Shown here: positions 24,150 to 41,123 of the stretch, piece after piece | How positions within the stretch are numbered: the first letter of the stretch is position 1 | How the letters are laid out: every line of letters starts with the position of its first letter | DNA from: Limnochorda sp. L945t | GTDB lineage: Bacteria; Bacillota; Limnochordia; Limnochordales; Geochordaceae | NCBI RefSeq assembly: GCF_035593305.1 | Contig: NZ_CP141615.1 | Coordinates: forward strand, 2,697,722 to 2,761,721 | DNA length: 64,000 bases | Reading direction: 5' to 3' | The notes under the pieces: generated by a model | Seen by the model: the letters and a program-made list of their open reading frames with translations, nothing else | The model's database searches: none | What the model was told of the DNA's origin: nothing | Made by a program: the position numbers and the translations under genes

Positions 24150-27053
24150 TCAGATGGCGACCAGCTCGGCAAGCCGCCGGCCAACCGGCGACGCCGGCTC
24201 CGATAGGACGCGGCGGGGCTCTCCTTCTTCGACGATCCTCCCCGCTTCCATCAGCACCAGGCGCTGACCGACGCGGAGGGCAAACCGCGGCTCATGGGTG
24301 ACGACGAGCATCGTGGTTCTCAACCGGCGGATGAGTTCCTCCATGAGGCCCAGGAGCTCGGCCACGAGCAGCGGGTCGAGCTGGGAGGTGGGTTCGTCCC
24401 ACAGCACGACTTCTGGATCGGTCACGAGGGCTCGGGCGATGGCCGCGCGCTGGCCCTCGCCCCCCGAAAGTTGGGAAGGCAACCGCCCCGCGGCCGCCTG
24501 CATGTCCAGCGCCTTCAACCAGTGCCACGCGGCCTCCCGGGCCTGCTCCCAGGGAAGGCCGGCAGCCGTGGCCGCCAGCGCCACGTTGTCCAGGACGGGG
24601 AGATGGCTCACCAGCTGGGGGCGCTGGAACACGAGTCCCACCCGCCGGCGCATGGCCTGCCGGGGGCCGGGGGCCATGCGGTGGAGGTCCTGGCCGTCCA
24701 TCAGGACCCGGCCTTCGTCGGGCTCCACCAGCCCCTTGAGGCAGCGCAAGAGCGTGGACTTGCCGCAGCCGGACGGTCCCATGACGACCACCGTCTCCCC
24801 CCGCCCGAGCGACAGCGAGACCCCGTCGAGCGCCCGGTGCGACTCGAAGCGCTTGACGAGCCCTACCGCCTCGAGCGCGGGCGCACTCGTCCCTTCGCCG
24901 GCAGGAGCCGGCTGCCCGCGTCCCGGGCGTGAGGCGGCCTGCGCCACCGCAGCGGGTGCAGAACGAGGCGGGCGCCGGGAAGCGGTCCAGGCCAGGACCC
25001 ATGGCCGGGACTCCGGCGCCACCACGTACTCGAGGACGGCCGGCAGGCTCAAGCCTGCCGCCCTTGCTGCCTCCACGGCGTCGCCGTCCACCGGCGCCAG
25101 GCGCTCGTGCCACCACCCGGCCGCCAGCCCCGCCAGGGCGCCTGCACAGGAGACCGCCCCGATCCAGGCGCCTTCCTGCCCCCAGAAGGCCATCGCCCCG
25201 GCGAGCGTGCCCATCACCAGGCCGCTGCCCGCGCCGGCCAGGGCCATCCGGCGACGTGCGCGCGCGAGGGCGCGGCGGTCGCTTCCCCGCCGGGCCGCCA
25301 GGTGGACCGAAGTCCATACCGCCCAGTCGTTGACCAGGCTCCATGCCACCAGCAAGGCCGCGGCCAGCGCGGCGGCCACCTTCGAGGCACGCTCTACCAG
25401 TTGCAGCACCAGCGCTCGCGGGCTCGGCGAGGCCGTACCCGCCGGCGACACCCAGGCGCGCATGGGCCCGAGCCCGGGGCGGGCAGCCAGGGCGCGCTGC
25501 ACCGCTTCCGGGACCATCGCACCGGGGGCACCCTCCACGACCAGTTCCACGCCGGAGCCGCCGGCCGCCGCCACGTCGCCGGACTGTTCGAGGAGGGCGA
25601 GCGCCGAGGCCACCTCCCGGCCGCTCAGGGCGGGCAGCTCCTGGCGCAAGGTGCGCACGTGGTCGAGGAGATGGGGAAGGTCGGCCTGGCGGAGCGCGTC
25701 GACCTGCTGGCGGAGTCGCGCGATGCGCCCCTGGAGGTCCGCGATGCCGGGAGAGCCCGGAGGGGAGCTTTGCGGTCTGGCGCCGGGACTTTCGAGAAGG
25801 GCGTTGAGCACCAGGGCGACCAGGGTGCCCTCGACCGGGTCGGCTCCCCACGCCGCGCGGTCGAGTTGGGAGGCAGCCTCCTGCAAGCGGTCGAGCGCCT
25901 GCGCCACCTCTCGAGAGGCTCCGTCGGCAGCGTCGAGGGCCGAGGAGGCCCCGGAGCCGAGCTCCTGTACCCGCCGCACCAGCGATTCGGTGGCTTGCAG
26001 CGCAGCCTCGATGCGCAGCCGGCCCCCGTCCACCACGGCGGTGCCGACCAGCTGGCCCGAGTGCCTGCGTACCTCGACCGTCTTGCCGAGCAGGTCCACG
26101 GACGACGCCGGGTCGTCCAGGAGCACCGCCACCGGGCTGCCGCTCGGCCCGGGCAGCACCCGGGCGGCGAGCCTGCCGACCTCCACCTCTTCCCCGCCCG
26201 CCAGCGGCGGCGACAGGTCCTGCCTGGGCTCGATGCGGGCCACGGTGGCGTACTGCAGGAGGAAGTCCCGCATGCGGCCGGCCCACCGTACCGCGGCCGC
26301 TCCGCTTCCTTCGGCCACCGGCCCCGCGTACGCCACCTTCGGGCGCCCCGGCATGGCCGAGACGGCCGCCGATACGTCCTGTGCCAGCCGGCCGAGCCCG
26401 CTCTGGCCCGGCGCCGGCGATCCGGCGGGTACCTGGGGGCTCACCCGGATGACCCGGTAGCCTCCCAGCCACTCGTCGAGCCGCGCCCGCACCCGGGAGA
26501 GCTCCTCCGGGCGCCGCAGCACGAGGACGAGATCGCTCCCGTGGAAAAACGTGTACGCCACGCCCCGGTCGCGTTCGGCCTGGTCCTGGACCCGAGCGGC
26601 GATGGCCGGATGGAGCCGGCTCACGACGATGGAGGGTTCCACGAGGGGCACCCAGGCCACCACCCCGGGAATGCCCTGCAGTTCGCGGCCCAGCCGTTCG
26701 AAGGAGGGGCCGGTGCGCATGGACGGCGGCAGGGAGAGCAACACCACGGCGCTCCCCGCCGCGGTCGGGCCGGTTCGCACCCGGGCGCCCGGGTAGCGGC
26801 TGGCCGCCAGCTGCTGGATGGCGCCGCGCGCCTCCCCGAGCCGATCCTCTTGGACCTGCACGAGCACGTCCCACCGGCCTGCCTCGCCGAGCGCCAGCTC
26901 CACGGTCGTGGCCAGCGCCCGTTGCATCCCCCAGGAGACCGCGGTGGACCCCGCTCCGGCCAGGAGGGCCGCCGCCAGGATCCAGGTGACGAAATGACGC
27001 CAAAGCCCGGCGCGAGCTCTGGCCTTACCGGTGCGTCCGGCCAGGTGTGCCAT
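24150..27053 (-). CDS. Single-chain FtsX/MacB-like ABC permease fused to a C-terminal ATPase
   Basis: 967 residues. One membrane helix (about 22-44), a large extracytoplasmic region (45-550) containing helical stretches at about 345-400 and 440-500, three membrane helices (about 557-577, 603-623, 628-647) with a basic loop between helices 2 and 3, a Pro/Ala linker, and an ATPase from residue 726: Walker A GPSGCGKST (758-766), Q-loop VFQRPQLV, signature LSGGEGQR, Walker B VVLWDE, H-loop VVTHEPRF. Topology is type VII (MacB, FtsX, LolC), but the ATPase is C-terminal, opposite to MacB. ATG at 27053 has AAGGGG. It sits between lptA and lpxC and has its own promoter. The substrate is unknown; lipoprotein, lipid or envelope mechanotransmission are possible. 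Confidence 0.85.
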   Translation of the reverse strand: MAHLAGRTGKARARAGLWRHFVTWILAAALLAGAGSTAVSWGMQRALATTVELALGEAGRWDVLVQVQEDRLGEARGAIQQLAASRYPGARVRTGPTAAGSAVVLLSLPPSMRTGPSFERLGRELQGIPGVVAWVPLVEPSIVVSRLHPAIAARVQDQAERDRGVAYTFFHGSDLVLVLRRPEELSRVRARLDEWLGGYRVIRVSPQVPAGSPAPGQSGLGRLAQDVSAAVSAMPGRPKVAYAGPVAEGSGAAAVRWAGRMRDFLLQYATVARIEPRQDLSPPLAGGEEVEVGRLAARVLPGPSGSPVAVLLDDPASSVDLLGKTVEVRRHSGQLVGTAVVDGGRLRIEAALQATESLVRRVQELGSGASSALDAADGASREVAQALDRLQEAASQLDRAAWGADPVEGTLVALVLNALLESPGARPQSSPPGSPGIADLQGRIARLRQQVDALRQADLPHLLDHVRTLRQELPALSGREVASALALLEQSGDVAAAGGSGVELVVEGAPGAMVPEAVQRALAARPGLGPMRAWVSPAGTASPSPRALVLQLVERASKVAAALAAALLVAWSLVNDWAVWTSVHLAARRGSDRRALARARRRMALAGAGSGLVMGTLAGAMAFWGQEGAWIGAVSCAGALAGLAAGWWHERLAPVDGDAVEAARAAGLSLPAVLEYVVAPESRPWVLAWTASRRPPRSAPAAVAQAASRPGRGQPAPAGEGTSAPALEAVGLVKRFESHRALDGVSLSLGRGETVVVMGPSGCGKSTLLRCLKGLVEPDEGRVLMDGQDLHRMAPGPRQAMRRRVGLVFQRPQLVSHLPVLDNVALAATAAGLPWEQAREAAWHWLKALDMQAAAGRLPSQLSGGEGQRAAIARALVTDPEVVLWDEPTSQLDPLLVAELLGLMEELIRRLRTTMLVVTHEPRFALRVGQRLVLMEAGRIVEEGEPRRVLSEPASPVGRRLAELVAI

Positions 27054-27871: not shown

Positions 27872-28671
27872 CACGAGCTGCCACCCGCCTCCGTGGGATC
27901 CGCCATGGTATCGCCCTCCACCTCTACCGGCCCGATGAACCGCATGGCCCCGGTGCCGGGCTCGTACTCCACCCGCTCCGCCCGGGCCCGCAGCCTCCCC
28001 GGATCGTCCACCGTGACGCCCCCCGAGAGGTGGATCACCCGGGTGTTGACGTCGATCTCCATGCGGGGGGAGCGGATCGTCATGGAGCCGTGGTGGATGA
28101 CCGTCGAGGCGTGGGTCCAGAGGAGTTCCCGGTCGGGCTCCCAGGTCAACTCGGCGCTCTCCATCACGTCCGTCCCGTACGCGAGGCGGAATCGTCCCTT
28201 CAGCACGAGCCGCCCGCTCTTTTCGTCGAACCGGCCCCCATCCCCCTCGAACGTGACCAGGGTCTCCCCCTCCCGGTAGAAGACCCCGTCCTTGACGTCC
28301 CGGAACTGCACCTCCCGTGCCGGCTCGGGGAGCTCGATGCGCTCCGCCCGCAGCTGCCACTGCCGCTCACCCCGGTGGCGCCCCACCAGGTGGATGTCGA
28401 GGCTTCGCACGCCCGGCGCCGGGGGCGCCGCCGGGCCCGCGGTCTCCCCGCCGGCAGGGGGCTCCGCTCCCGGCGGCGTTTTCCACGGGTGGAAGGCGCC
28501 AGACCAGATCCCCACGCCCGCCGCCCCCACCGCCAGCGCGGCGAGCACGGCGACGGCCCTTCGCCGCCTGCGGGAGCGGCCTTCGCTGGCCCTGGTCCCG
28601 GCCCGGGCCGGCGCCCGGGTTTGGCTCAGTTGCCCGGAGGCTTCTCCAGGGCGTGGAGCAACTGTTGCCAC
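27871..28671 (-). CDS. lptC: LPS export periplasmic protein LptC
   Basis: 266 residues. A basic Arg-rich cytoplasmic tail (SRRRRR), one membrane span (AVAVLAALAVGAAGVG), a Pro-rich spacer, then an LptC/OstA beta-sandwich (REVQFRDVKDGVFYREG, GGRFDEKSGRLVLKG, YEPGTGAMRFIG). LptC receives LPS from LptB2FG and passes it to LptA. The start is placed at GTG 28671 because GGAGGAG lies 7 bases upstream; this overlaps lptD by 46 bases. A CTG at 28629 overlapping the lptD stop is the alternative. The longer open frame upstream is a shadow of lptD. Confidence 0.83.
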   Translation of the reverse strand: MATVAPRPGEASGQLSQTRAPARAGTRASEGRSRRRRRAVAVLAALAVGAAGVGIWSGAFHPWKTPPGAEPPAGGETAGPAAPPAPGVRSLDIHLVGRHRGERQWQLRAERIELPEPAREVQFRDVKDGVFYREGETLVTFEGDGGRFDEKSGRLVLKGRFRLAYGTDVMESAELTWEPDRELLWTHASTVIHHGSMTIRSPRMEIDVNTRVIHLSGGVTVDDPGRLRARAERVEYEPGTGAMRFIGPVEVEGDTMADPTEAGGSS

Positions 28672-31028
28672 TGGCTCTCCTCCGTCAGGCTGTCGGGCCG
28701 GATCGCCCCCACCGCCACCTCGGCCCCCTCGAACGCCTTGATCTGGTACCCGAGCGCCCAGCGCTGGGCCGACGGGTCGTAGCGGAGCCCGATGGCCCGG
28801 CAGTCCTGGTCGAGGGCCACGCCCACCTCGCTCGACACCCAACCGCCCAGCTTGGTGTCCCAGCTGCCTCCGGCCGAGACCACCCACTCGGGCAGCACCC
28901 GCCACGAGAGCTGGAGGTCGGCCCGCTGCACCCGGCTCTCCACAGGCGCGTAGAGGGTCCCGAGCTTGAGCGTCAGCTGGCCCGGTACCTGCCAGCTGAC
29001 GCTGGCCGCCATCTGGTCGACGGCCTGTAGAGCCGGCGCGTAGCGAGCCGCCACCTGCACCCGGCCCTGCCTCGGAGCCCACTCGAGCTGGCCGGTCACG
29101 CTCTCGAGCTCGCCCTGCCCCGCGTCGTATACCGCCGTCCAGCCCAGGCCCACCTCTCCGGCCTTCGCCCGCGTCGAGGCGGTCACCTCCTGCCACGCGC
29201 CCGTCGCGACATCGTAGGTGGAGGTCAACGACAGGCTGAGCGGGCCCCCCACGCCTGCGGCGAACCCCAGGTCTATGGCCTCTTCGTAGCTGGCCTGATC
29301 GAACTGGAACGGGGGCACCGCCCGCTCGCCGCCTTCGCCCGGACCGGCGATCACCCGCAGCGGGTCGGTCAGGCGGTAGCCGGCGCTCGCGTAGGTGCCG
29401 GGGGTCAGGTAGTACCGGGCCGACCCGCTCGCCTTGAGGGCCAGCTGTCCCGACCCGTTGTCGTAGCGCGCCCCCCACAGACTCGAGTCGGCCTTGAGCT
29501 CCCACGGGCCGTGGCGGACCGGGCGCAGGCTGATGGCGGGTTCGAGGGTGAGGCGCCAGGCGGACGTTTGCTGCGCAGAGCCGTCCACCAGCCGCCGTTC
29601 CGTGAAGTGCCCTGCGCCGGCCCGTAGCTCGATCTGTCCCGGCAGCGCCCCTGCCCAGCGCGTCACCGTTCGAGAGGCGCGCAGCTCGGGCAGGGTGACC
29701 AGGCTTTCCCAGGCCGTCTTGCGCTCGGGATCGGCGTAGAGGTCAGGGTGGCTGACGCGGCCGGCGGAGAGCTCGATCTGGCCGTCCCCCGACTTCCAGG
29801 CGAGCGTGCCGACCGCATCCCACAGCGAACGGGCAGGCTGGTCGGGAAGGCGGGCCAGATCCCAGCGCGCGTGGAGCCGGCCGCTCAGCGGACCGCCGGC
29901 AGGCGGCGCCACCTCGAAGCTGCCCACCGAGGCGCCGGTCAGCGCTTCGGGCACTTGGACGGGGCGGCGGCCCGAGGCGAGCAGCGAGAGCCGCACGCCC
30001 CAATCGGGAAGCGAGCCGGAGGCGGTCCACCATCCGAGGTACTGGAGCCGGCCGTCCAGGTCTTGCCGGGCCACCTCGTTGCGAGAGGTGAGGGCACCCC
30101 CGCCGGCCACCAGCTGGCCTTCGGTGCCGGCCCGCACGTCGGGAGGGAAGCCTCCGTGCTCGCCGAGCGTGGTCTCGCCGAAGACCGCGGCAAAGCTCCT
30201 GCCGTCGTCGTAGAGAGCCTGGTACAGCCCGAGCCCCGCGCCCAGGCGCTCGAAGTAGCTGGCAAGCACGTAGCCGTAAGTGCTTCCGGGGCCCATGTAC
30301 GGCAGGCGTGCCCGCACAAACCACCCTTCCCTCTGGCCGTAGCCCACCTCCGGAGGCACGAAGCGGCCCGCACGGGGGTTGACCAGGGAGAAGTGCAGAT
30401 ACGGCCAGTAGAAGATGGGCACGCCGCTCTCCCAGAAGACCGCGTGGTACGCCGCCACCTCCTCGCGGGGGCGCACCACCAGGCTGCTCACCGTCACCCG
30501 GTAGTGCGCGTGCTCCATCGGAAGCGGGCAGGTGGTCAACGTGGCCCCCTCGGCCTCGATTCGGTCCTCCCGCCCCTCGAGGCGCGCCGACTGTAAGAAG
30601 ATGGGCCCTTCGACACCGTCGGTCTCCACCGTCGCCGCCGCCTGGCCGACCACGGCGTTGCCCGACGGCAGGTCGAGGTGCAGCGTCTCGCCGGTGAGGG
30701 TCTCGCCCGGGCGACGGGCCCGGACGTTGCCCGACAGCCACGCTTGCTGGAGGGTGTCGTCGTAGCGCAACCTCTCGGCCTGTACCTCGAGGTCCTTCCA
30801 GAAAAGGGTAAACCCGCCGGTCACCACGACCACGGGAGGCCGCACGTCGGCGACGGCCCCGTCCTTCAGCTCGAGCCGCAGGCCCTCCGGTCCCTCGACG
30901 GCGGCAGAGGACGCACCCGCAAGGGACGTCCGACCGGCCCCCGCCAGCGCCAGCGTGGCAAGGGCCGCGACCACGAGGACCCGCCATGGCGCTACCCGCC
31001 CCCCCTGCGCCGGCCTGCGCTCCTGCAT
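28626..31028 (-). CDS. lptD: LPS assembly outer-membrane protein LptD
   Basis: 800 residues. Signal peptide, N-terminal OstA-type jellyroll (GGFTLFWKDLEVQAERLRY, RPGETLTGETLHLDL), then a long beta-barrel with repeated strands (PEVGYGQREGWFVRARLPY). LptD with the LptE plug inserts LPS into the outer leaflet. Only two cysteines are present, Cys167 (TTCPLP) and Cys743 (DQDCRAIGLRY), the positions of the E. coli Cys173/Cys725 pair that locks the jellyroll to the barrel. ATG at 31028 follows the lptF stop by two bases, with GGAG upstream. No lptE is visible nearby. Confidence 0.88.
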   Translation of the reverse strand: MQERRPAQGGRVAPWRVLVVAALATLALAGAGRTSLAGASSAAVEGPEGLRLELKDGAVADVRPPVVVVTGGFTLFWKDLEVQAERLRYDDTLQQAWLSGNVRARRPGETLTGETLHLDLPSGNAVVGQAAATVETDGVEGPIFLQSARLEGREDRIEAEGATLTTCPLPMEHAHYRVTVSSLVVRPREEVAAYHAVFWESGVPIFYWPYLHFSLVNPRAGRFVPPEVGYGQREGWFVRARLPYMGPGSTYGYVLASYFERLGAGLGLYQALYDDGRSFAAVFGETTLGEHGGFPPDVRAGTEGQLVAGGGALTSRNEVARQDLDGRLQYLGWWTASGSLPDWGVRLSLLASGRRPVQVPEALTGASVGSFEVAPPAGGPLSGRLHARWDLARLPDQPARSLWDAVGTLAWKSGDGQIELSAGRVSHPDLYADPERKTAWESLVTLPELRASRTVTRWAGALPGQIELRAGAGHFTERRLVDGSAQQTSAWRLTLEPAISLRPVRHGPWELKADSSLWGARYDNGSGQLALKASGSARYYLTPGTYASAGYRLTDPLRVIAGPGEGGERAVPPFQFDQASYEEAIDLGFAAGVGGPLSLSLTSTYDVATGAWQEVTASTRAKAGEVGLGWTAVYDAGQGELESVTGQLEWAPRQGRVQVAARYAPALQAVDQMAASVSWQVPGQLTLKLGTLYAPVESRVQRADLQLSWRVLPEWVVSAGGSWDTKLGGWVSSEVGVALDQDCRAIGLRYDPSAQRWALGYQIKAFEGAEVAVGAIRPDSLTEESQWQQLLHALEKPPGN

Positions 31029-31030
31029 GG

Positions 31031-32116
31031 CTACTCCGCCCACTCCGCCCGCAAGAAGAGCCAGGCGGCCGCGGCCAGGTAGAGCAAATTGGGCATCCAT
31101 GCGGCCGCGAGGGGCTCGACGGCACCCGAGTTGCCCAGAGAGCGAAACAGCGCGAACACCACGTAGTACAACAGCACGAGCCCCAAACTCGCCGCCGCCC
31201 CGAACGCCCGGCCTCCGCGCCGCCCGTAGAGGCTGAGGGGAAGCCCGAGCAGGGTCATCACCAGGGCAGCCATGGGCAGCGAGAGCTTGATGTGATACTC
31301 GACCCAAAGCGAGCGGGCCACCACGCCGGCCTTGCGCAGCCGGCGGATCTCGTCGCCGAGTTCCCGGCGGCTCATCTCCTCGGCGCTCTTCTGGGAACCC
31401 AGGTACGCCTCGGTGGGTTCTGCGAGGGTCATTTCGTAGCGCTTCATGCTGGACTCCACCTGGACGAACCCGTCGGCGTCGAGGCGCTTCATCGTGACGT
31501 CCTCCAGGTGCCAGGTACGGCCCTCGTACCAGCCGCGCCGGGCCGTGTAGATGACCGGGAAGCTGTCGGGGCGCAGTTCGTAGACCAGCGCGTCCAGGAG
31601 CTCCCGGGTCGACCGGTCGACCCGGCGCACGTAAAACCAGTGAGTCGGGGTGCCCCGGAAAAAGACGTTTTCGGAGATGGCAGGGACGGGATCGGCCAGG
31701 ACGGCCCGGCGCAACATGATCTCGTACCGGTGGTTGGCCTGAGGCACCACGTACTCGTTGAGGGCGTACGTGAGGACGCTGATCGCGGCGCCCAGGAGGA
31801 GGACGGGCAACCCGATGCGAGCCACGCTGAGCCCGGCGCTGCGCATCACGGTCATCTCGCCGTCTCGCACGAGCCGACCGGCAGAGAGCAGCGTCCCGAA
31901 GAGGGCGGCGATGGGAAGGGCGATGCTGAGGGCGGCCGGCACCTTGAGTGCCAGGAGCGAGAAGGTCACCGCCGGGTCGGCGCGCTGCACCACCAGCAGG
32001 TCCGTCAGCTGGAAGATGGTGCTCGTGATCAGCAACAAGACGAAGCCGACGGCTGTTACGAGAAAGGGTCCCAGGAATTCCGTTGCGACGTAGAGATCGA
32101 GCCGCCGCAATGGCAA
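31031..32116 (-). CDS. lptF: LptF/LptG-family LPS export permease
   Basis: 361 residues of the YjgP/YjgQ family: three N-terminal helices (FLGPFLVTAVGFVLLLI; LSIALPIAALFGTLLSAGRL; IGLPVLLLGAAISVL), a periplasmic jellyroll (about 130-250) and three C-terminal helices. The GRLVRDGEMTVMRSAGLS segment is the coupling helix contacting LptB. It extracts LPS from the inner membrane. Only one such gene occurs here, whereas Proteobacteria use a LptF-LptG heterodimer. TTG at 32116 has GAGGAG four bases upstream; a TTG two codons later is also possible. Confidence 0.9.
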   Translation of the reverse strand: MPLRRLDLYVATEFLGPFLVTAVGFVLLLITSTIFQLTDLLVVQRADPAVTFSLLALKVPAALSIALPIAALFGTLLSAGRLVRDGEMTVMRSAGLSVARIGLPVLLLGAAISVLTYALNEYVVPQANHRYEIMLRRAVLADPVPAISENVFFRGTPTHWFYVRRVDRSTRELLDALVYELRPDSFPVIYTARRGWYEGRTWHLEDVTMKRLDADGFVQVESSMKRYEMTLAEPTEAYLGSQKSAEEMSRRELGDEIRRLRKAGVVARSLWVEYHIKLSLPMAALVMTLLGLPLSLYGRRGGRAFGAAASLGLVLLYYVVFALFRSLGNSGAVEPLAAAWMPNLLYLAAAAWLFLRAEWAE

Positions 32117-32131: not shown

Positions 32132-33124
32132 TTACGGGGCGGCCGTCATGAGGCCGAGCTGGTGGATCCCTCCGTAGATCTCCCCACCCATGTACGTGTA
32201 GCTGATGGCCCAGTTGCCCCCGGGCATGCGCACTCCCAGCCCCGCCAGCCAGCCGGTCCCCGAGCCGCTGGCCGCCTCCACGCCCAGCCGCAGCGCGACC
32301 GGCCGGCCCGGGTAGAGGCGCACTTCCCCGCGGGCCGCACGATGCCCGGTGGAGTTGAACAGGTCGCTCGCGTCCGCCTCGACAATCAGGTACGGATTGG
32401 GCTGGTACCCGAGCCCCGCATGGAAGGTGGGCGTGAGCAGCACGATGCGGCCGGCCGAGCCGCCGGGGCTCTCTGCCGGCCCACCCGGCCCTGCCTGCCA
32501 GACCTCCAGCACCCGCCGGACGCTCAAGCCGGCCACGAGCTGATCACCGAGCGCCGACACGAGCCCGACGTCCACCCCGAGGTAATGGTCGTCCCGCGTC
32601 GGGTAACCGCGCTCGCCCGGCAGAGGAACGCGTACCCGGCGGTAGTGGACGTCGAGGCCCAGGCCCGTCGAGTGCGACATGGTCACCGCGTACGTGTAAC
32701 CGGCCGCCAGCTCGGAGGCGGGGGCGCCGGGCGCGAGCGAAACTTCGGCGTCCCTGCCGCCGGACTTGGCCCAAAGGGCCCACCCCTCGCCGTCGCGGCC
32801 CTGCGCGATACCCGCCGCGTGCACGTACGCCGGGTTGCGCCGGGCGGTCTCGCCGGAGCCCACGGTGGCGCTCACGCCCCACCGCATGCCCTCCAGGAAG
32901 GCGGGCCCGGCGGGGTTGGAGAAGATCCGCAGCGGCTCGTCGGGGGCCGCGGTGGTGGCCATGCCCTCGAACAGAGCCGTGGCCTCCGGCACCCGGGGGG
33001 ACTGCTCGGCCAGCGTTCCCGCCGTGGCCCACGCCCACGCCAGCCCCAAGAGCAAGGCCGTCGTCGCGGCGCGCCGGGTTGCCCGTGCCTCAAAAGACCG
33101 CGCTGATGTTGATGCCCGTAGCAA
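32132..33124 (-). CDS. Putative outer-membrane beta-barrel protein, unknown family
   Basis: 330 residues from a provisional TTG at 33124. A hydrophobic signal-like segment (TTALLLGLAWAWATAG) is followed by EPLRIFSNPAGPAF, which resembles the NPAG motif of PorV/FadL-like barrels, and then by alternating beta strands (GVSATVG, GYTYAVTMSHS, GLGLDVHYRRVRV, GLGVRMPGGNWAISYTY). It ends in a beta strand but without a terminal Phe. It overlaps the next barrel gene by 35 bases and lies between lpxD and lptF, so a role in LPS or outer-membrane assembly is likely but undefined. The start is weakly supported. Confidence 0.65.
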   Translation of the reverse strand: MLRASTSARSFEARATRRAATTALLLGLAWAWATAGTLAEQSPRVPEATALFEGMATTAAPDEPLRIFSNPAGPAFLEGMRWGVSATVGSGETARRNPAYVHAAGIAQGRDGEGWALWAKSGGRDAEVSLAPGAPASELAAGYTYAVTMSHSTGLGLDVHYRRVRVPLPGERGYPTRDDHYLGVDVGLVSALGDQLVAGLSVRRVLEVWQAGPGGPAESPGGSAGRIVLLTPTFHAGLGYQPNPYLIVEADASDLFNSTGHRAARGEVRLYPGRPVALRLGVEAASGSGTGWLAGLGVRMPGGNWAISYTYMGGEIYGGIHQLGLMTAAP

Positions 33125-33764
33125 GGGCGAGGTACCCCCTGTCCATCACCCCGACGTCGACCTGGACGCCCGGCCCCCACTGCAGCGTGGCGCCCGCGTT
33201 GAGGGTCGCCCCGTCGAAGTCCATCCCGAGGGTCACCACCGGGGTGGCCAGCGCCCCCGGCCGGCGGACCGTGACCGGGTTGACGACCGCGCTCACGCCT
33301 GCGAACAGCCCCGCACGCTCACCCACACGGCCCCCCAGGTGGGCCCGCAGGTAGCGGGGGCCCGGCAGGCTGTGGCTGGCCACGACGTACCCGGACAGCC
33401 CCTCGATGCCCACCGCCATGGCAGGCAAAGCGTCCTGCTCTTTGAGGAAGCGGTAGTGGGCCAGCAGCCCCGCGCGGCTCGTGTCCGGAGCCCCAGCCTG
33501 CTCGGCCGGGCTCACCACCCCGCCCAGCTCGAGCTCGTCGGTGAGCTGGTAACGAAGATAGCTGTATACCGGAGATCCGCCCGCCACGTGCAGCCCGGCC
33601 GTGAACTGCCGCGCCGCCCCGCCGTCTGCGGTGGGGATGTTGACCACCCCTGCGCCGCGGCTGCCGCGCAGGCTCGTCGCCCGCACGCCTTGCGCTGCGG
33701 CCGGCAACCACGCCACCGCCACGGCCAGCACCAGCGCGACGCCCCTCCCTGCTCGCCCGCTCAT
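33090..33764 (-). CDS. Putative small outer-membrane beta-barrel protein
   Basis: 224 residues: signal peptide (MSGRAGRGVALVLAVAVAW...AAAQ), then beta strands with GAGVVNIPTADGG, a sequence reminiscent of YjbH-type domains, and a C-terminal LATGINISAVF ending in Phe, the BamA recognition signal. Eight to ten strands are likely. ATG at 33764 overlaps the lpxD stop as ATGA and has GGGGGAGG upstream. Position between lpxD and lptF suggests an envelope-assembly role. No known family can be assigned with confidence. Confidence 0.7.
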   Translation of the reverse strand: MSGRAGRGVALVLAVAVAWLPAAAQGVRATSLRGSRGAGVVNIPTADGGAARQFTAGLHVAGGSPVYSYLRYQLTDELELGGVVSPAEQAGAPDTSRAGLLAHYRFLKEQDALPAMAVGIEGLSGYVVASHSLPGPRYLRAHLGGRVGERAGLFAGVSAVVNPVTVRRPGALATPVVTLGMDFDGATLNAGATLQWGPGVQVDVGVMDRGYLALATGINISAVF

Positions 33765-34837
33765 TGACCTCCCCCTCGTGACTCCGGGCCATCCCCCTCG
33801 CCCGCCACGCCCAGGCGCCGCTCCAGCCGCTCCAGGCGCCGCAGCAGCTCCGGGAGCTTGCGGCTCAGGGCCCACACCCGTATCGCCTCGCCGTGGGGGA
33901 TGGCCGGCATGCCGGCCAGGCGCGCCCCTGGCTCCACGTCTCCGATGACGACGCTGCGCCCGGCGATCACCGCGCCGTCGCCGATGGTCACGTGGTCGGC
34001 CACCCCGACCTGCCCGCCCAGGACGACCCGTGCCCCCAGGCGCACGGAGCCGGCGATCCCGACCTGGCCCACCACCAGGGAGTGAGGCCCGATCCGGACG
34101 TTGTGCGCCACCTGCACCAGGTTGTCGATCTTGGTGCCCTCGCCGATGACGGTGGCGCCCGCGCTCGCCCGATCGATACAGGCATTGGCGCCGATCTCCA
34201 CGTCGTCCTCGATGATGACCGTGCCGGCCTGGGGCCTGCGCCGGTGGCGCCCCTCCCGGGTCGTGAAGCCGAATCCCTCGGAGCCGATGACCGCCCCCGC
34301 GCCGACGCGCACGCGCCGGCCTATCTGCACCCGCTCCCGCACGACAGCCCGGGCGTGGATGATGCTCTCGTCGCCGATGGTCGCGTCGTCGCCCACGATG
34401 GCTCCGGGAAAGAGCACCACGCCGCGCCCCAGGCGCGCCCTGTGACCGACCACCGCAAAAGCGCCGATGCGGACCCCTTCCCCCAGTGCGGCGTCGGGAG
34501 CGATCGTCGCCCGGGGGTCGATGCCGGGCTCGGGAAGCCACGGCTGCGGGGCGAAGAGCTCGAGGATCTGGTCCCACGCCTCCCGGGGCTCGTCCACCTC
34601 GATACAGGTCTGCCCGGCCACCAGCTTGCCGGGCGGCACCAGTACGGCGCCCACCTCCCGGCCGGCCAGCGCCCGGGCGTACCGGGCGCCCACCGCCATC
34701 GTGAGGTCGTGGGGCCCTGCCTCCTCGACGGGAGCCACCCCCCGGATCCAACCCCGGGGGTCTCCGCTCGCTAACCGTCCCCCGACGCGGCGCGCCACCT
34801 CCTCGACCGTGAGGGTGAGGCGCTCGCCGGGCATCAT
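33761..34837 (-). CDS. lpxD: UDP-3-O-acylglucosamine N-acyltransferase LpxD
   Basis: 358 residues. N-terminal uridine-binding domain, then left-handed beta-helix repeats with GSEGFGF, GANACIDRASAGATVIGEGT, KIDNLVQVAHNV (catalytic His) and AGMPAIPHGE. LpxD adds the second acyl chain after LpxC. ATG at 34837 has AAGGAGG nine bases before. It follows skp by 13 bases, the bamA-skp-lpxD order seen across diderms. Confidence 0.94.
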   Translation of the reverse strand: MMPGERLTLTVEEVARRVGGRLASGDPRGWIRGVAPVEEAGPHDLTMAVGARYARALAGREVGAVLVPPGKLVAGQTCIEVDEPREAWDQILELFAPQPWLPEPGIDPRATIAPDAALGEGVRIGAFAVVGHRARLGRGVVLFPGAIVGDDATIGDESIIHARAVVRERVQIGRRVRVGAGAVIGSEGFGFTTREGRHRRRPQAGTVIIEDDVEIGANACIDRASAGATVIGEGTKIDNLVQVAHNVRIGPHSLVVGQVGIAGSVRLGARVVLGGQVGVADHVTIGDGAVIAGRSVVIGDVEPGARLAGMPAIPHGEAIRVWALSRKLPELLRRLERLERRLGVAGEGDGPESRGGGQ

Positions 34838-34850
34838 GTAGCGCCCTCCT

Positions 34851-35426
34851 TCAGCGGGACGACGAAGACGGCTTTTCCGTGCTACCAGACGTCTTGATGC
34901 CGAGCTCCAGGAGCACCTGATCGGTGATGTCCCGGCCTCCCCAGATGACCAGGTTCTTGTCGAGCACTGCCTCGAGCCCCAGGCGAGCCGCCACCCGGCC
35001 GATGGCATCCTTCACCTTGGGGAGCCGCTGGTTGATCATCTCCTGCTTGCGCTGATCGAGCTGCTGCTGGTAGCGAGCGAAAAGGGCCTGCTTCTGCTGT
35101 TGGTACTGGTTGCGGAGGTTTTGCTTCTCGGCGTCGCTCGCACCCTTCACCTTCTCGTTGAGTTCGGCGTCGAGCGCGGCCGCCTCCTTGTCGAACTGCG
35201 CCTGCAGCCGGGCGGTCTCCTGGCGAAGGGGTTCGCCGAGGGCAGGCTGCAGGTACTCGGTCGCCACCCGGTCGAGGTCCACGGCACCGATCGTCGCCGG
35301 CGGGTTGTTGGCGGCCCGGGCCGCCGACCAGGCGACGCTCCCGAACCCCAGGGCCACGGCGACGGCTGCCGCCGCCCACAGCGCCCACGGGGGCCTTCGG
35401 TTCAACCAAACTCGGACACGCTGCAT
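34851..35426 (-). CDS. skp: Periplasmic chaperone Skp/OmpH
   Basis: 191 residues: a membrane or signal segment (ALWAAAAVAVALGFGSVAW), then IGAVDLDRVATEYLQ, followed by a long Gln/Glu/Lys-rich coiled coil (about 65-140) and a C-terminal ITDQVLLELG strand. This is the OmpH family: trimers that hold unfolded outer-membrane proteins on the way to BamA. The C-terminal tail is Ser-rich. ATG at 35426; the gene follows bamA by 28 bases. The uncleaved-looking N-terminus could leave it anchored. Confidence 0.88.
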   Translation of the reverse strand: MQRVRVWLNRRPPWALWAAAAVAVALGFGSVAWSAARAANNPPATIGAVDLDRVATEYLQPALGEPLRQETARLQAQFDKEAAALDAELNEKVKGASDAEKQNLRNQYQQQKQALFARYQQQLDQRKQEMINQRLPKVKDAIGRVAARLGLEAVLDKNLVIWGGRDITDQVLLELGIKTSGSTEKPSSSSR

Positions 35427-35454: not shown

Positions 35455-37356
35455 TCAAAACTGCTGGCCGATGCTGAAGTGGAACTGCCCCGAGCTCTCC
35501 CGGGTCATGCCGTAGTCGAGGCGGATCATCCCGAGAGCGCCGATGTCGATCCGTAGCCCCAGGCCCGCATCCCACTTCAGATCGCGCAGGTCGACCTGCT
35601 CGCCGTCTTTCCACGCCATCCCGCTGTCGAAGAACAGGACGCCGGAGAGCATCTCGTAGATGGGGAACCGGTACTCGAGGTTGCCCATCGCCATCCGGGT
35701 ACCCGAGAAGGTGCCGTAGCCGTACCCCCTCAGGGACTCGGCGCCGCCGAGGCGGAAAAGCTCCTGGTCGGGCGGCTGGGGGTCGAACGAGATCAGGTCG
35801 CCCAGGCTGATGCGGCCGGCGATCACGTGCTGCCACGTGCCGAACAGCTGCACCGGCACGTACTGGCTGTACGAGCCCTCGAACTTGTTGAAGTGGAAAT
35901 CGCCGCCGAGCCCGGCCACCTCGGCCGACAGCCGCAGCCGCTGCCCCGTCGAGGGGTTGAACGGGTGATTGCTGGTGTCCGTCATCGTGCTCAGGCGCAC
36001 GCTGCGCAGGGTGCCCTCCTCGATGCCGGACGGCCCCGACCCTTCGACCAGGGGCGCCTCCCACTTGTTCTGGGTGAAGGTGAGGTACCCCCGGGTGAAC
36101 TCGGAGAGCGGGCGCCCCAGCGTCACCTCGCCGCCGTAGCGGCGGTCCCAGTACTGAGGCCCACCGGGATTGTTACTGTCCAGGGGCTTCTTCGCCTGCT
36201 CCCAGCTGAGCTTGAAGCCGAGCGACGTGCCGCTGCGGTCCACGTACGGCTCGGTGAAACTCACCTGGTAGCGCTGCGCGTTGGCGCCGTAGTTGATGGC
36301 GAGCCCGACCTGCTGGGCCCTGCCGAGGAAGTTGGCGTCCGAGACGTCCAGCAGGCCAGCCGGGCCCTCGTGCTGCGACCAGGTGATCCCCATCTGGATG
36401 TTGCCGGTCCGCCGCTCCTTGACGCTGACCTGGACGGCCACCTCGTCGGGCTTGTCGGGGATGCCCTTGAGATCGGCGTTGACCTCCTCGAAGAGCTGGA
36501 GCATCAAGACCCGCCGCAGGCTCTTCTCCAGGTCCGCGCGCTGCAGCACCTCGCCCGGCTTGATGGAGAGCTCCCGGGTGATGACGTACGGCCTGGTCTT
36601 GTTGTTGCCCGTGACGTCGATGCGGCCGACGCGAACCGGCAGCACCTCCACCGTCAGAGTCCCCTCGTCGTCCAGGTCGACGCTCCCCGGGGACGTGAGG
36701 ACGCCGTAGCGTTGCCATATCTTCCCAGGCAGGTCCTGCAGCTGGCGCGTGATGGTGGGCCCATGCGCCACCTTGCCGGTGGGCAGCTCCAGCAAAGCCC
36801 CCAGGCTTGCCGGCGTGGCCCCCGCCTTCGCCAGGAGCGGAGCGACCTCCGGTTGGGCGTTGACGATGACCTTGCGCAGCACGGGGTTTTCGGTGACGGT
36901 GAAGATCACCCGCACCGGCACCGGCTCCCCCGGGCCCGTGCCCGAGGAGAGCGTGATGCTCTGAACGTCCACGGAGACGCTGCGGAAGTAGCCCATCGCC
37001 AGGATGGCCCGCTGATCGGCCTGAATGTCTTCTCGAGAAAGGCTCTTGCCCGGTTGGGTATGGGTGATGGCGTCGAGGATCTGCGACGCCGGCACCTCGT
37101 TGTTGCCGCTGACCACGACGGCCCGCACCATGGCCGGGGGAAGGGCCTGTTGCTGCGCGGGGGACTGCCCGGGCGGTGCCCCCTGGGCCGGCGGCGCCTG
37201 GGCACTTGCCACCGCTGCCCACGCTGCCACCGTGGTCACCGCCAGGATGGCGACCGCTATCCGGAGCACGGGGGCCCTGGTCCGCCGGATACGTGCCGTC
37301 AACGAGGATCCGCCACCTTCCGCTGCGCTGGAGGGAGGTACGACCGCTGCCGTCAC
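35455..37356 (-). CDS. bamA: Outer-membrane protein assembly factor BamA (Omp85)
   Basis: 633 residues. After an N-terminal signal region come three POTRA domains (from about 75: VRAVVVSGNNEVPASQIL; ENPVLRKVIVNAQ; VGRIDVTGNNKTRPYVI), fewer than the five in E. coli, then a 16-strand barrel with FTEPYVDRSG and the lid-lock LRGYGYGTF, ending FHFSIGQQF with terminal Phe. It inserts barrel proteins including LptD and the SLH barrels encoded here. GTG at 37356 has AGGGTGA upstream. It follows tamB by 45 bases. Confidence 0.93.
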   Translation of the reverse strand: MTAAVVPPSSAAEGGGSSLTARIRRTRAPVLRIAVAILAVTTVAAWAAVASAQAPPAQGAPPGQSPAQQQALPPAMVRAVVVSGNNEVPASQILDAITHTQPGKSLSREDIQADQRAILAMGYFRSVSVDVQSITLSSGTGPGEPVPVRVIFTVTENPVLRKVIVNAQPEVAPLLAKAGATPASLGALLELPTGKVAHGPTITRQLQDLPGKIWQRYGVLTSPGSVDLDDEGTLTVEVLPVRVGRIDVTGNNKTRPYVITRELSIKPGEVLQRADLEKSLRRVLMLQLFEEVNADLKGIPDKPDEVAVQVSVKERRTGNIQMGITWSQHEGPAGLLDVSDANFLGRAQQVGLAINYGANAQRYQVSFTEPYVDRSGTSLGFKLSWEQAKKPLDSNNPGGPQYWDRRYGGEVTLGRPLSEFTRGYLTFTQNKWEAPLVEGSGPSGIEEGTLRSVRLSTMTDTSNHPFNPSTGQRLRLSAEVAGLGGDFHFNKFEGSYSQYVPVQLFGTWQHVIAGRISLGDLISFDPQPPDQELFRLGGAESLRGYGYGTFSGTRMAMGNLEYRFPIYEMLSGVLFFDSGMAWKDGEQVDLRDLKWDAGLGLRIDIGALGMIRLDYGMTRESSGQFHFSIGQQF

Positions 37357-37401: not shown

Positions 37402-40400
37402 TTAAAAGCTCAGCTGCCAGTGTAGCCCCAGCCGCAAGCCACCGCTCTCGGCCCAGGCGGCCCTCCATGTCAGGTTAGGGCTCAACTGGAAGGAGAGGTC
37501 CACCTCCTGGTCCGAACCGCTCCCCAGGAGCGCGCGCCCGTACCTGACATAGACCCTCGAAGGGGCGAGGTACTTTCCGAGGGAGAGCCACAGGCCCCTG
37601 TCGCCGCCGGCGGGAATGATCCAGAGTTCGTCGAGACCGAGGCTCTCCCGCACCGCCCGCTCCAGGGGATTCATGGCCCAGACGGCGAGCTGCTCGTTGA
37701 CCCGGTTGACCCACTGCTCGCCCGGCCCGTCGCTGGGCGGGGGCAGGAGCAGCGCGATCAGCTGCTCCCGGGTCATCTCGGGGCGGGAGCTGAGCTTGAG
37801 CTTCGAGACGTCGGATGCCTCGCCCTGGACGTCGATCTGGACGGGCCCACCATCCTGCCCGGTCGTCGACGCCTCGAGGTTGAGCTCGGGCACCATGCCG
37901 CGGCTCTTGCTGAAGTTGAGGGTGCCGCTCGTGATGCGGAACTCCCGCCCGAAGTAGCGCAGCCTCGCCTGGGAGAGCTGCACCGTCCCCTCCAGCGCCG
38001 GCACGGCCGTGGTACCGGTCAAGAGCAACGTGCCTTGCGCCAGCCCGGACCCACCGAGCGCCGGCACGTCGAGGCGCACCGGCTCGACGGCCTCGAGGGT
38101 GACGTCCAGGGGGATGCCCGCCGAGAAGGACGGCCTGCCTTCCGTGGCCGCGGGCGCCTCCGGGGGCTGGCGCGACGGCACGGGGCCGACCTTGGGGGCG
38201 GGGCCTGCCGGCGAAGGCTGGCCCGGGGCTCCGGCGAACGGGCTGCCGCCGGCCCAGACCAGGAAGCGCCCCCGGCGCACGGCGAGCTTCCCGGAAAGGG
38301 TGGGCCAGCGCTCCGGCGAGAGGACGCCGGACCACCGGAGCTCCCCGTCAAACAGCCCGGAAAGCTCCAGGCTCTCCACCGGCCGTCCTCCGATCGATGC
38401 CTGCCGTACCAGCAGGCGCAAGTCGACCGGGTCGAGAGCGACCGGCCAGATCGACGCGAGGCCGGCACTGCCCGAGAGGGTCAAGCTCCCACCCGTCGCC
38501 AGCCGGGCCTGGCCCGTCTCCACCCGGATGCTGCGCCCCTGGATACCCAGGGCCACCGCCACGTCTTCGAGTGCCGTCAACCGCCCGTCGGCGGAAGCGA
38601 CCCGCTGCGCCTGGAAGCGCAGCCCGCCCCTGGCATCGGGTGCATCCAGGCGCCCCGTGATGGCCAGCTGCCCGGTCAGCCCACCTCCCTGGATCTCCCA
38701 CTGCGGCATCCACTCCCGCACGAGCTCCAGGGGAAAACGCTGCATGGTGACCTGGACGTCCAGGTTGGTGGGGCGCGACGTGACCCCCGGCCACGGTACG
38801 GGGACGAGGCCCGCCGCCCTGGCCACCTCCTGGCCCTGAACGTCGATACGAAGATCCTGCAGCCGCAACCCTTCGGGAAGCATGACCAGCCGGCCGGCGG
38901 CGGAGGCGCCAGGTGGGACCCCGGCCGCCTGGGCAAGGCGCAGCTGGACCTGCCCGGACCACTTCTGCATGTCCACGTCGGCGCTCAGCGAGCCCTCCAG
39001 CTCGCCGCCCTTGATCCGCGCTCCGGTGACCACCCACCGGCTCGCCCCCAGATCCGCCCGCAGCGGCACCGTCACGTCGCCGAGCTGCCGGTCGAAAGCC
39101 GCCAGGTGGCGGGCGCTCAACTGCCCGGTCAGCACGCCGCCCCGGAGCCGGCCGGAGAAAGCCGCCTGACCCCGCACGCCGCGCAGCCACGGGCGCAGGG
39201 CGACCCCGCCCAGGTCGATGAGGTCGCCGGTCACGGCGTAGGCGTCGGGACCGGTGCGGGCCATCTCCACCGTCCCGTCCGGGCCGTCGAAGCGGGCCAC
39301 CACGACGATCGGCTGGGGCTGCGCGCCCGAGAGCGTCCAGACGAGGCGCGTCTCGAAGCTGCCGGTCAGCTGCCCGCGGGGAGCAGGGGGACGGGAGCCT
39401 CCCGCGGGCTCGCCCCCGGGCGCTCCCGATGGGCGCAGCATGGCGGAGACCGCGGTCACCGCCTCGGTCGAGGCTACCCCTTCGAGCTTCCCCGACAGGT
39501 CCAGCACGACCTGCGCGTCCTGCAACGCCGCGCCCGCCGCCGCCGGAGCGGACGGCCCCCACCATACCTTCGAGGAGATGGTCAGAAGACCACTGCCCAT
39601 CTCGACCGTAGCCGGCTCGACGCTCAGGCGCCCCTCGCTCACGTTGGCCTCCACGGAGAGCGCGGCGCTACCGGCGGCCACGTCGAGCAGCCGCCCCGAG
39701 GGCGCGTGGACCTCGCCCGAGACCCGCCACGGCCCCGAGGCCGACCCGGTCACCTCGCCTCGAGCGTCCACGCTGCTGACGCGGTAAGCGGGCCACCAGG
39801 GCACGTCATCCATGGGGGTGAGCCCCGTGAGCTCGAAGGGAATCGCCGTCGTGAACGGCCACTCCCCGCTGACCTGCCCCGAGAAGCGCCCCTGCACGTT
39901 GCCCTTGGTCAGGCGCCCGTCGGCGATCTGCACCGCACGGGGCTGCTGCACCACGGTGAAGCTCGCTACGGCGCCGATCAGGTGCTGAGGCCACACCCGT
40001 TCGGCCGCTGCCGGAGCCTTCCCGGTCGCCTCCAGCCGGACCGCCACGGGAGGCAGCCCCTGAGCGAGCCACGGGCCCTTGGCCGTGAAGCTCCCTCGCA
40101 AAGCCGGCAGCTCGGCCGACGCATCCGTCTCCACGGCACCGTCCAGAGCCAGGTTGAGCGTACCGTCGCGAGCCAGGGCCACCGCTGCCTGCGCCGAAAG
40201 GCGCAGCCCCTTCGTTCGCGCCGCCAGCCGCTGCACGTCCACCCGATCGTCGCTCACCGAGGCCGAAAAGATCGCCTCGACGTCCCCGAGGGTAACGGTG
40301 CCCTCGGCGCTGAGCGCGCCGTCGGCCCCGCGCCGGAGCTGTCCGCGCGTCTGCCACCGGGTCCGGGCACTCGCACCGGACCCCGGGCCGCCCAGCTCTT

Positions 40401-40992
40401 CCCAGGTCCCCTCCAGGCTCCACGAAAGCGCGTCGCCCGGCTTCATCCACTCCAGCTGGGAGCGGTTGGCCTGCACCCATTGCATCGCCCGCAGGACGGC
40501 ATCCCTGGCACTCTTGACCATCTCCGAGACGGACGGGGGAGCCGCCTTCTTGTCGGGCTCCTTGCCGGCCTCCTCGGCAGCCGCGGGCGGATCCGGCGCC
40601 CTGGCCGAGGTCCGCACCAGCACCTGGCTGGCCTCGAGACGCCGGATGGCCCGCTCCGGATGGGCGTAATTGGCGACGATCGCGGGAAGGTCGACGCCCA
40701 CCTTGATGCCCGGAGCGAACAGGCGTGCCTGCTCGTCCATCACGATTTGTACCGGAGCCACCCGCACGCCCGGCGGGAACGTGAGCGAAACGCTCCCGAC
40801 CCGCACCGTCTGGCCGGTTCCGCCGGCAGAGGCCTCGATCGCTCTCGCCACGGCCATGCTCAGGCGCCGGTTGATGACGGGAAGTGCCCATGCCCCTGCA
40901 GCCAGCGACGACGCGACGAAGGCCGCCAGGGCTACCAACAGCCACCAGCCGCGGGTGCGCCGGATCCCGGATGAAACGTGAGCCTTCTGCAT
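37402..40992 (-). CDS. tamB: TamB-family intermembrane transport protein
   Basis: 1196 residues. An N-terminal membrane anchor (GWWLLVALAAFVASSLAAGAW) is followed by a very long repetitive beta-rich region (AsmA/TamB beta-taco) and a C-terminal DUF490 domain (ITSGTLNFSKSRG, EMTREQLIALLLPPPS, ending HWQLSF). TamB bridges inner and outer membranes and is thought to carry phospholipids and aid barrel assembly; in diderm Firmicutes it is the main such candidate. ATG at 40992 was chosen over TTG 41007; neither has a strong ribosome-binding site. It sits directly upstream of bamA. Confidence 0.9.
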   Translation of the reverse strand: MQKAHVSSGIRRTRGWWLLVALAAFVASSLAAGAWALPVINRRLSMAVARAIEASAGGTGQTVRVGSVSLTFPPGVRVAPVQIVMDEQARLFAPGIKVGVDLPAIVANYAHPERAIRRLEASQVLVRTSARAPDPPAAAEEAGKEPDKKAAPPSVSEMVKSARDAVLRAMQWVQANRSQLEWMKPGDALSWSLEGTWEELGGPGSGASARTRWQTRGQLRRGADGALSAEGTVTLGDVEAIFSASVSDDRVDVQRLAARTKGLRLSAQAAVALARDGTLNLALDGAVETDASAELPALRGSFTAKGPWLAQGLPPVAVRLEATGKAPAAAERVWPQHLIGAVASFTVVQQPRAVQIADGRLTKGNVQGRFSGQVSGEWPFTTAIPFELTGLTPMDDVPWWPAYRVSSVDARGEVTGSASGPWRVSGEVHAPSGRLLDVAAGSAALSVEANVSEGRLSVEPATVEMGSGLLTISSKVWWGPSAPAAAGAALQDAQVVLDLSGKLEGVASTEAVTAVSAMLRPSGAPGGEPAGGSRPPAPRGQLTGSFETRLVWTLSGAQPQPIVVVARFDGPDGTVEMARTGPDAYAVTGDLIDLGGVALRPWLRGVRGQAAFSGRLRGGVLTGQLSARHLAAFDRQLGDVTVPLRADLGASRWVVTGARIKGGELEGSLSADVDMQKWSGQVQLRLAQAAGVPPGASAAGRLVMLPEGLRLQDLRIDVQGQEVARAAGLVPVPWPGVTSRPTNLDVQVTMQRFPLELVREWMPQWEIQGGGLTGQLAITGRLDAPDARGGLRFQAQRVASADGRLTALEDVAVALGIQGRSIRVETGQARLATGGSLTLSGSAGLASIWPVALDPVDLRLLVRQASIGGRPVESLELSGLFDGELRWSGVLSPERWPTLSGKLAVRRGRFLVWAGGSPFAGAPGQPSPAGPAPKVGPVPSRQPPEAPAATEGRPSFSAGIPLDVTLEAVEPVRLDVPALGGSGLAQGTLLLTGTTAVPALEGTVQLSQARLRYFGREFRITSGTLNFSKSRGMVPELNLEASTTGQDGGPVQIDVQGEASDVSKLKLSSRPEMTREQLIALLLPPPSDGPGEQWVNRVNEQLAVWAMNPLERAVRESLGLDELWIIPAGGDRGLWLSLGKYLAPSRVYVRYGRALLGSGSDQEVDLSFQLSPNLTWRAAWAESGGLRLGLHWQLSF

Positions 40993-41123
40993 AGCGATGA
41001 CCGTCAAGGGGATTCTTCGGATCTTCTGCTCTTCCCGCCTAGGAAAGCTTCCAATGGTTGGCGCTAAGTGCCAGCATACGCCAACGCGTGGTCAGATGCC
41101 AGGGGTGCGCGGCCGATCGGGAC

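Follow-up and report, generated by a model that had tools for sequence, protein, structure and literature searches.

What is the role of two small overlapping genes that lie between lpxD and lptF/G in the outer-membrane gene cluster of the bacterium Limnochorda sp. L945t? Their products, named here P1 and P2, were described in a first-pass annotation, made from the DNA letters alone, as barrel proteins of unknown family, whose fixed setting among the lipopolysaccharide (LPS) genes was taken as a hint of an outer-membrane partner for LPS or phospholipid transport, for example a functional substitute for LptE or an outer-membrane lipid channel. The window considered below is the whole analysed stretch of 64,000 nucleotides from the L945t genome, which is a single contig of 3.31 Mb.

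Gene Order at the Locus

All genes of the cluster in the window are located on the minus strand. TamB (37402..41007), BamA (35455..37356), the Skp/OmpH chaperone (34851..35426) and lpxD (33761..34840; TIGR01853, 9.6e-101; position of the start codon provisional) are followed by P1 (33090..33764), P2 (32132..33124), the lptF/G permease (31031..32116; PF03739, 1.6e-91) and an LptD homologue (28626..31307), which was recognised by NF002997 over a short stretch (E 2.7e-11) and remained below the cut-off of the Pfam LptD profile. LptC, LptA, an LptB-type fusion, lpxC and then lpxA, lpxI and lpxB complete the order. The fusion (24150-27053) joins an LptB-type ATPase to an N-terminal stretch of ~715 amino acids having no notable Pfam match; in other families the two parts are separate adjacent genes.

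The structure of the gene pair was confirmed as originally read. Both open reading frames are present, P1 with 224 residues and a C-terminal Phe, P2 with 330 residues, an NPAG-type motif and a TTG start codon. They overlap by 35 bases (33090..33124), and the lpxD stop is coupled to the P1 start by ATGA (33761..33764), preceded by GGAGGT. Both are real genes, since two further genomes of the L945t family carry orthologues (~49–54% identity) arranged in this order. The 35-base overlap recurs in the loci L038 and L039 and is replaced by gaps in more distant families; therefore, it is lineage-specific. Long plus-strand reading frames over P1 and P2 were taken as GC-rich shadow frames. One relative of P1 with 97% identity was found by a contig scan in a Limnochordaceae MAG. 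The P2 of the Bu05 MAG (L002:8641-9630) diverges from the L945t reading near the C-terminus in a manner resembling a frameshift or assembly error.

Families of P1 and P2

It was found, with high confidence, that both proteins belong to already known families, contrary to the initial description: P1 is of the YjbH/GfcD type and P2 of the PorV/FadL type. The YjbH Pfam profile (PF06082) matched 28 of the 31 P1 family members at E ≤ 0.1, the best value being 5.5e-11. L945t P1 taken alone gave E 0.0033 and 16.7 bits with this profile, below the cut-off of 24 bits, so its membership rests on its family; pairwise, it gave no match to YjbH. A profile of 77 P1 sequences scored 63.6 bits against E. coli YjbH and 48.1 bits against GfcD, while the controls (2000 shuffled copies and BamA, LptD and P2 sequences) reached 6.6 bits at most. 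Using hhalign, the whole of P1 was aligned to residues 1-277 of 698 in YjbH/GfcD (E. coli K-12 b4029 and b0984), i.e., from the signal peptide to the ..NF strand (97.6%, E 2.7e-12), and P1 ends at the same terminal ..F strand as the first barrel of YjbH (residue 275-277 of 698). The search of PDB sequences with the P1 profile gave no match.

P1 is thus predicted to be an outer-membrane barrel, on the basis of this homology, a pattern of ~12 candidate strands, a signal-peptide-like start (residues 1 to ~25) and the terminal Phe, which closes the C-terminus ...NISAVF in L945t and occurs in 22 of 31 family rows. Alternating hydrophobicity exceeds that of shuffled sequences in both the P1 and P2 families, and the early prediction that both are barrels is upheld by family homology and strand pattern. 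In the P1 tree, the groups of sequences follow lineage and context, the deep branches being weakly supported. AlphaFold models, built from two near-identical sequences each, had pLDDT of 29.6 (P1) and 28.6 (P2) and were discarded.

The PorV_fam profile (NF033709) matched 22 of 25 P2 family members (best 1.4e-20), FadL (PF03349) matched 16 of 25, and the P2 profile found PorV 6h3i in the PDB at E 1.4e-7; L945t P2 alone gave no Pfam or NCBIfam match. The sequence SNPAG occupies P2 residues 69-73, P71 and A72 being invariant; in FadL-type barrels, NPA marks the N-terminal hatch. The strand pattern of P2 gave ~12 candidates, and barrels of the PorV/FadL type have 14 strands and a lateral opening. 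P2 of L945t ends in ...TAAP and the P2 proteins of family f1 in ..P, whereas a terminal Phe is present in 20 of 25 rows. The possibility that P1 and P2 are homologous to each other was rejected (hhalign 16.5%).

Distribution and Gene Neighbourhood

By profile, P1 is near-universal in Limnochordia (65 of 73 genomes, a single copy in each) and is situated just upstream of lptF/G in the loci showing both genes. It was also detected in 58 of 398 Bacillota genomes, 44 of the 58 being outside Limnochordia. Forty regions around the homologues outside Limnochordia were considered. Clusters of the BamA-Skp-lpxD type account for 22 of them; P1 comes immediately after lpxD in 21 of these, and P2 is next in 7. 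These loci resemble those of Negativicutes and Halanaerobiia, gene order being the sole basis of this likeness. Owing to its single-copy presence in 65 of 73 Limnochordia and its place directly after lpxD in 21 of 22 loci, P1 seems to be an old component of the outer-membrane cluster of diderm Firmicutes, and its conserved place is wider than could be known from one sequence.

The other 18 homologues adjoin unrelated genes, for example in the order speE-speB-P1-argS (from protein starts), and weaken a strict tie between P1 and Lpt. The fixed setting noticed at first holds across Limnochordia and beyond. The first-pass annotation named homologues outside an LPS-locus context as evidence against its reading, and such evidence exists in part: these 18 P1 homologues and the P2 paralogues elsewhere in the L945t genome. 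One non-cluster carrier of P1 (G091, 306 kb covered) has BamA and an LptD-like gene; in another (G096), no outer-membrane marker was found in the ~21% of the genome covered. Genes similar to speE/speB, argS and pyrG occur repeatedly near P1 homologues in L113, L114, L120, L124, L126 and L129, and a patatin-Omp85 fusion is encoded near a P1 homologue at L118:1655-3883.

P1 and P2 might also be general diffusion or structural barrels, serving for uptake of small molecules or as membrane filler, and stand in the cluster by chance. This suggestion agrees with the non-cluster settings of P1, its loss in some lineages and the nature of P2: the P2 profile matches four places in the L945t genome and 14 in G004, so this PorV/FadL-type family is multi-copy. 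Nevertheless, Limnochordia genomes carry a single copy of P1, which follows lpxD even in lineages that have diverged widely, and three polar residues (E109, R140 and H142) do not vary within the P1 family, whether or not lpxC is present. We consider a chance placement of general barrels fairly unlikely.

Relation to Lipid A and the Lpt Bridge

The lpxC gene was found in 30 of 61 Limnochordia genomes. P1 is present in 25 of the 30 with lpxC and in 28 of the 31 without it (Fisher p 0.47). Two of the latter, G038 and G042, are fragmentary and carry lpxD at the locus, so that ~29 genomes were counted as lpxC-less; after this reassignment, P1 occurs in 26 of 29 lpxC-less genomes vs 27 of 32 others. 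The ~30 lpxC-less Limnochordia mostly keep P1, lptF/G and LptD. In those of their loci that were read, no lpxD lies between Skp and P1, and lptF/G and an LptD-like gene follow downstream; a profile of 11 such LptD sequences matched PDB LptD at 7.5e-17. In lpxC-less G027, the order LptB, FabZ-type, LpxB-like indicates that lpxC, lpxA and lpxI are missing at the cluster position where L945t has them. The lpxC-less set includes G013, G016, G020, G024, G027, G030 and G064 (the last one from its locus only), and LptC, LptA, LptB, a FabZ-type gene and an LpxB-like gene are also kept in the lpxC-less loci L042, L057, L059, L090 and L099.

The opposite case is represented by G005, G006, G008, G010 and G012 (three f4 and two f2 genomes), which have lpxC and lack P1 by profile. 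In those of their loci that were read, lptF/G comes directly after lpxD, and neither P1 nor P2 nor an LptE above the cut-off is encoded at this place; therefore, P1 is dispensable for an Lpt cluster. Since P1 is kept without lpxC and is missing in five lpxC-positive genomes, it is neither needed for lipid A nor dependent on it.

These data bear on the proposal that P1, P2 or both serve specifically in LPS transport, substituting for LptE at LptD. The position between lpxD and lptF speaks for it, as does the search for LptE (PF04390), which gave none over the cut-off in the 61 genomes. The P1-less genomes are among these 61, and P1 and P2 themselves gave no match to PF04390. At the same time, the distribution of P1 is unrelated to lpxC and contradicts an LPS-specific role from both sides; lpxC-positive lineages having no recognisable LptE are also devoid of P1; and P1 and P2 contain no cysteine for an LptE-like lipid anchor, so neither is an LptE-type lipoprotein. 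Such a function is, in our opinion, very improbable. Thus, the LPS/LptE interpretation is mostly not supported, while the conserved place in an outer-membrane cluster is supported.

Two other genes were rejected as lipid A markers: LpxK, found in only one of 73 Limnochordia, though about half carry lpxC, is uninformative (absent in 72 of 73), and LpxB is kept in lpxC-less genomes.

Comparison with Known Systems

GfcD was predicted to have two barrels, one of 12 strands at the N-terminus and one of 13 strands, open laterally, at the C-terminus, and was modelled as a lipid-anchored exporter of polysaccharide (PMC11494523). P1 differs from YjbH/GfcD in having neither the middle domain nor the second, laterally open barrel, as well as in the lack of cysteine and in its gene neighbours. 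Because the gated C-terminal barrel is absent, the gating suggested for GfcD does not extend to P1. The suggested function of an outer-membrane lipid channel is weakened for P1 for the same reason; P2 may have such a function.

P1 could assist polysaccharide secretion as an accessory barrel, the function suggested for YjbH and GfcD in E. coli. Besides the homology and the GfcD model mentioned above, a Wzz-type gene downstream of the cluster in lpxC-less G027 is in line with this suggestion. Only a single genome showed this Wzz link, the gated barrel is absent from P1, and no yjbEFG/gfcABC-type gene, including any yjbF/yjbG (gfcB/gfcC) type partner, was found among the L945t window neighbours scanned. 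Participation of P1 in polysaccharide secretion is considered quite unlikely. Regarding P2, its family shares with PorV/PorQ (NF033709) and FadL (PF03349) the profile match and the N-terminal NPAG motif, and no type IX secretion genes were recognised among the P2 neighbours scanned.

An earlier paper on Negativicutes and Halanaerobiales described their conserved outer-membrane locus, whose TamB-BamA-Skp-lpxD-lpt order is shared by L945t (PMC5007114). Its main-text passages on the cluster list three unexplained new proteins, COG0816, COG4372 and COG0750, and name no YjbH-type barrel. In a Veillonella study, two other proteins were proposed as possible equivalents of LptE (PMC5491611). In open-access main texts, nothing was found on YjbH together with Negativicutes, and none of the papers listed for the YjbH domain had a title on diderm Firmicutes; P1 may be listed elsewhere. 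P1 is apparently a widespread, unnamed part of the outer-membrane cluster of diderm Firmicutes.

Proposed Role and Significance

We suppose, with the chances about evenly balanced, that P1 and P2 are accessory outer-membrane barrels of the ancestral cluster of diderm Bacillota, handling a glycan or amphiphile. Both proteins would be exported by Sec to the outer membrane and probably folded by the adjoining Skp/BamA (TamB) machinery. P1 corresponds to the first, N-terminal (12-strand) barrel of YjbH/GfcD standing alone, and P2 to a barrel of the PorV/FadL type that carries the NPA hatch motif. They may display on the surface, or handle, a glycan or amphiphile whose route is the Lpt bridge or lies next to it, and would participate neither in the recognition of lipid A nor in the plugging of LptD. 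This functional part of the explanation is tentative and somewhat doubtful.

For Limnochordia without lpxC and without cluster copies of lpxD, lpxA and lpxI, it can be suggested that the retained LptF/G-LptD-LptC-LptA-LptB bridge exports some glycolipid that is not lipid A and may be synthesised with the LpxB-like enzyme still present, with P1 and P2 as outer-membrane partners of this export. This suggestion is speculative and rather unlikely. A precedent for Lpt without LPS is provided by the spirochaete Borrelia burgdorferi, which reportedly lacks LPS, keeps the Lpt bridge and was proposed to carry a glycolipid as cargo (PMC10353723).

If these views are correct, a conserved outer-membrane barrel stands unnamed in the very cluster that was used to argue for the two-membraned origin of Firmicutes, and natural lineages with Lpt and P1 but without lpxC offer a direct test of Lpt cargo besides lipid A.

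A second, remoter LptF/G homologue (29–32% identity) was noticed in G005, G006, G008, G010, G012 and G029; it is located ~20 kb from the first one or, in G012, on another contig.
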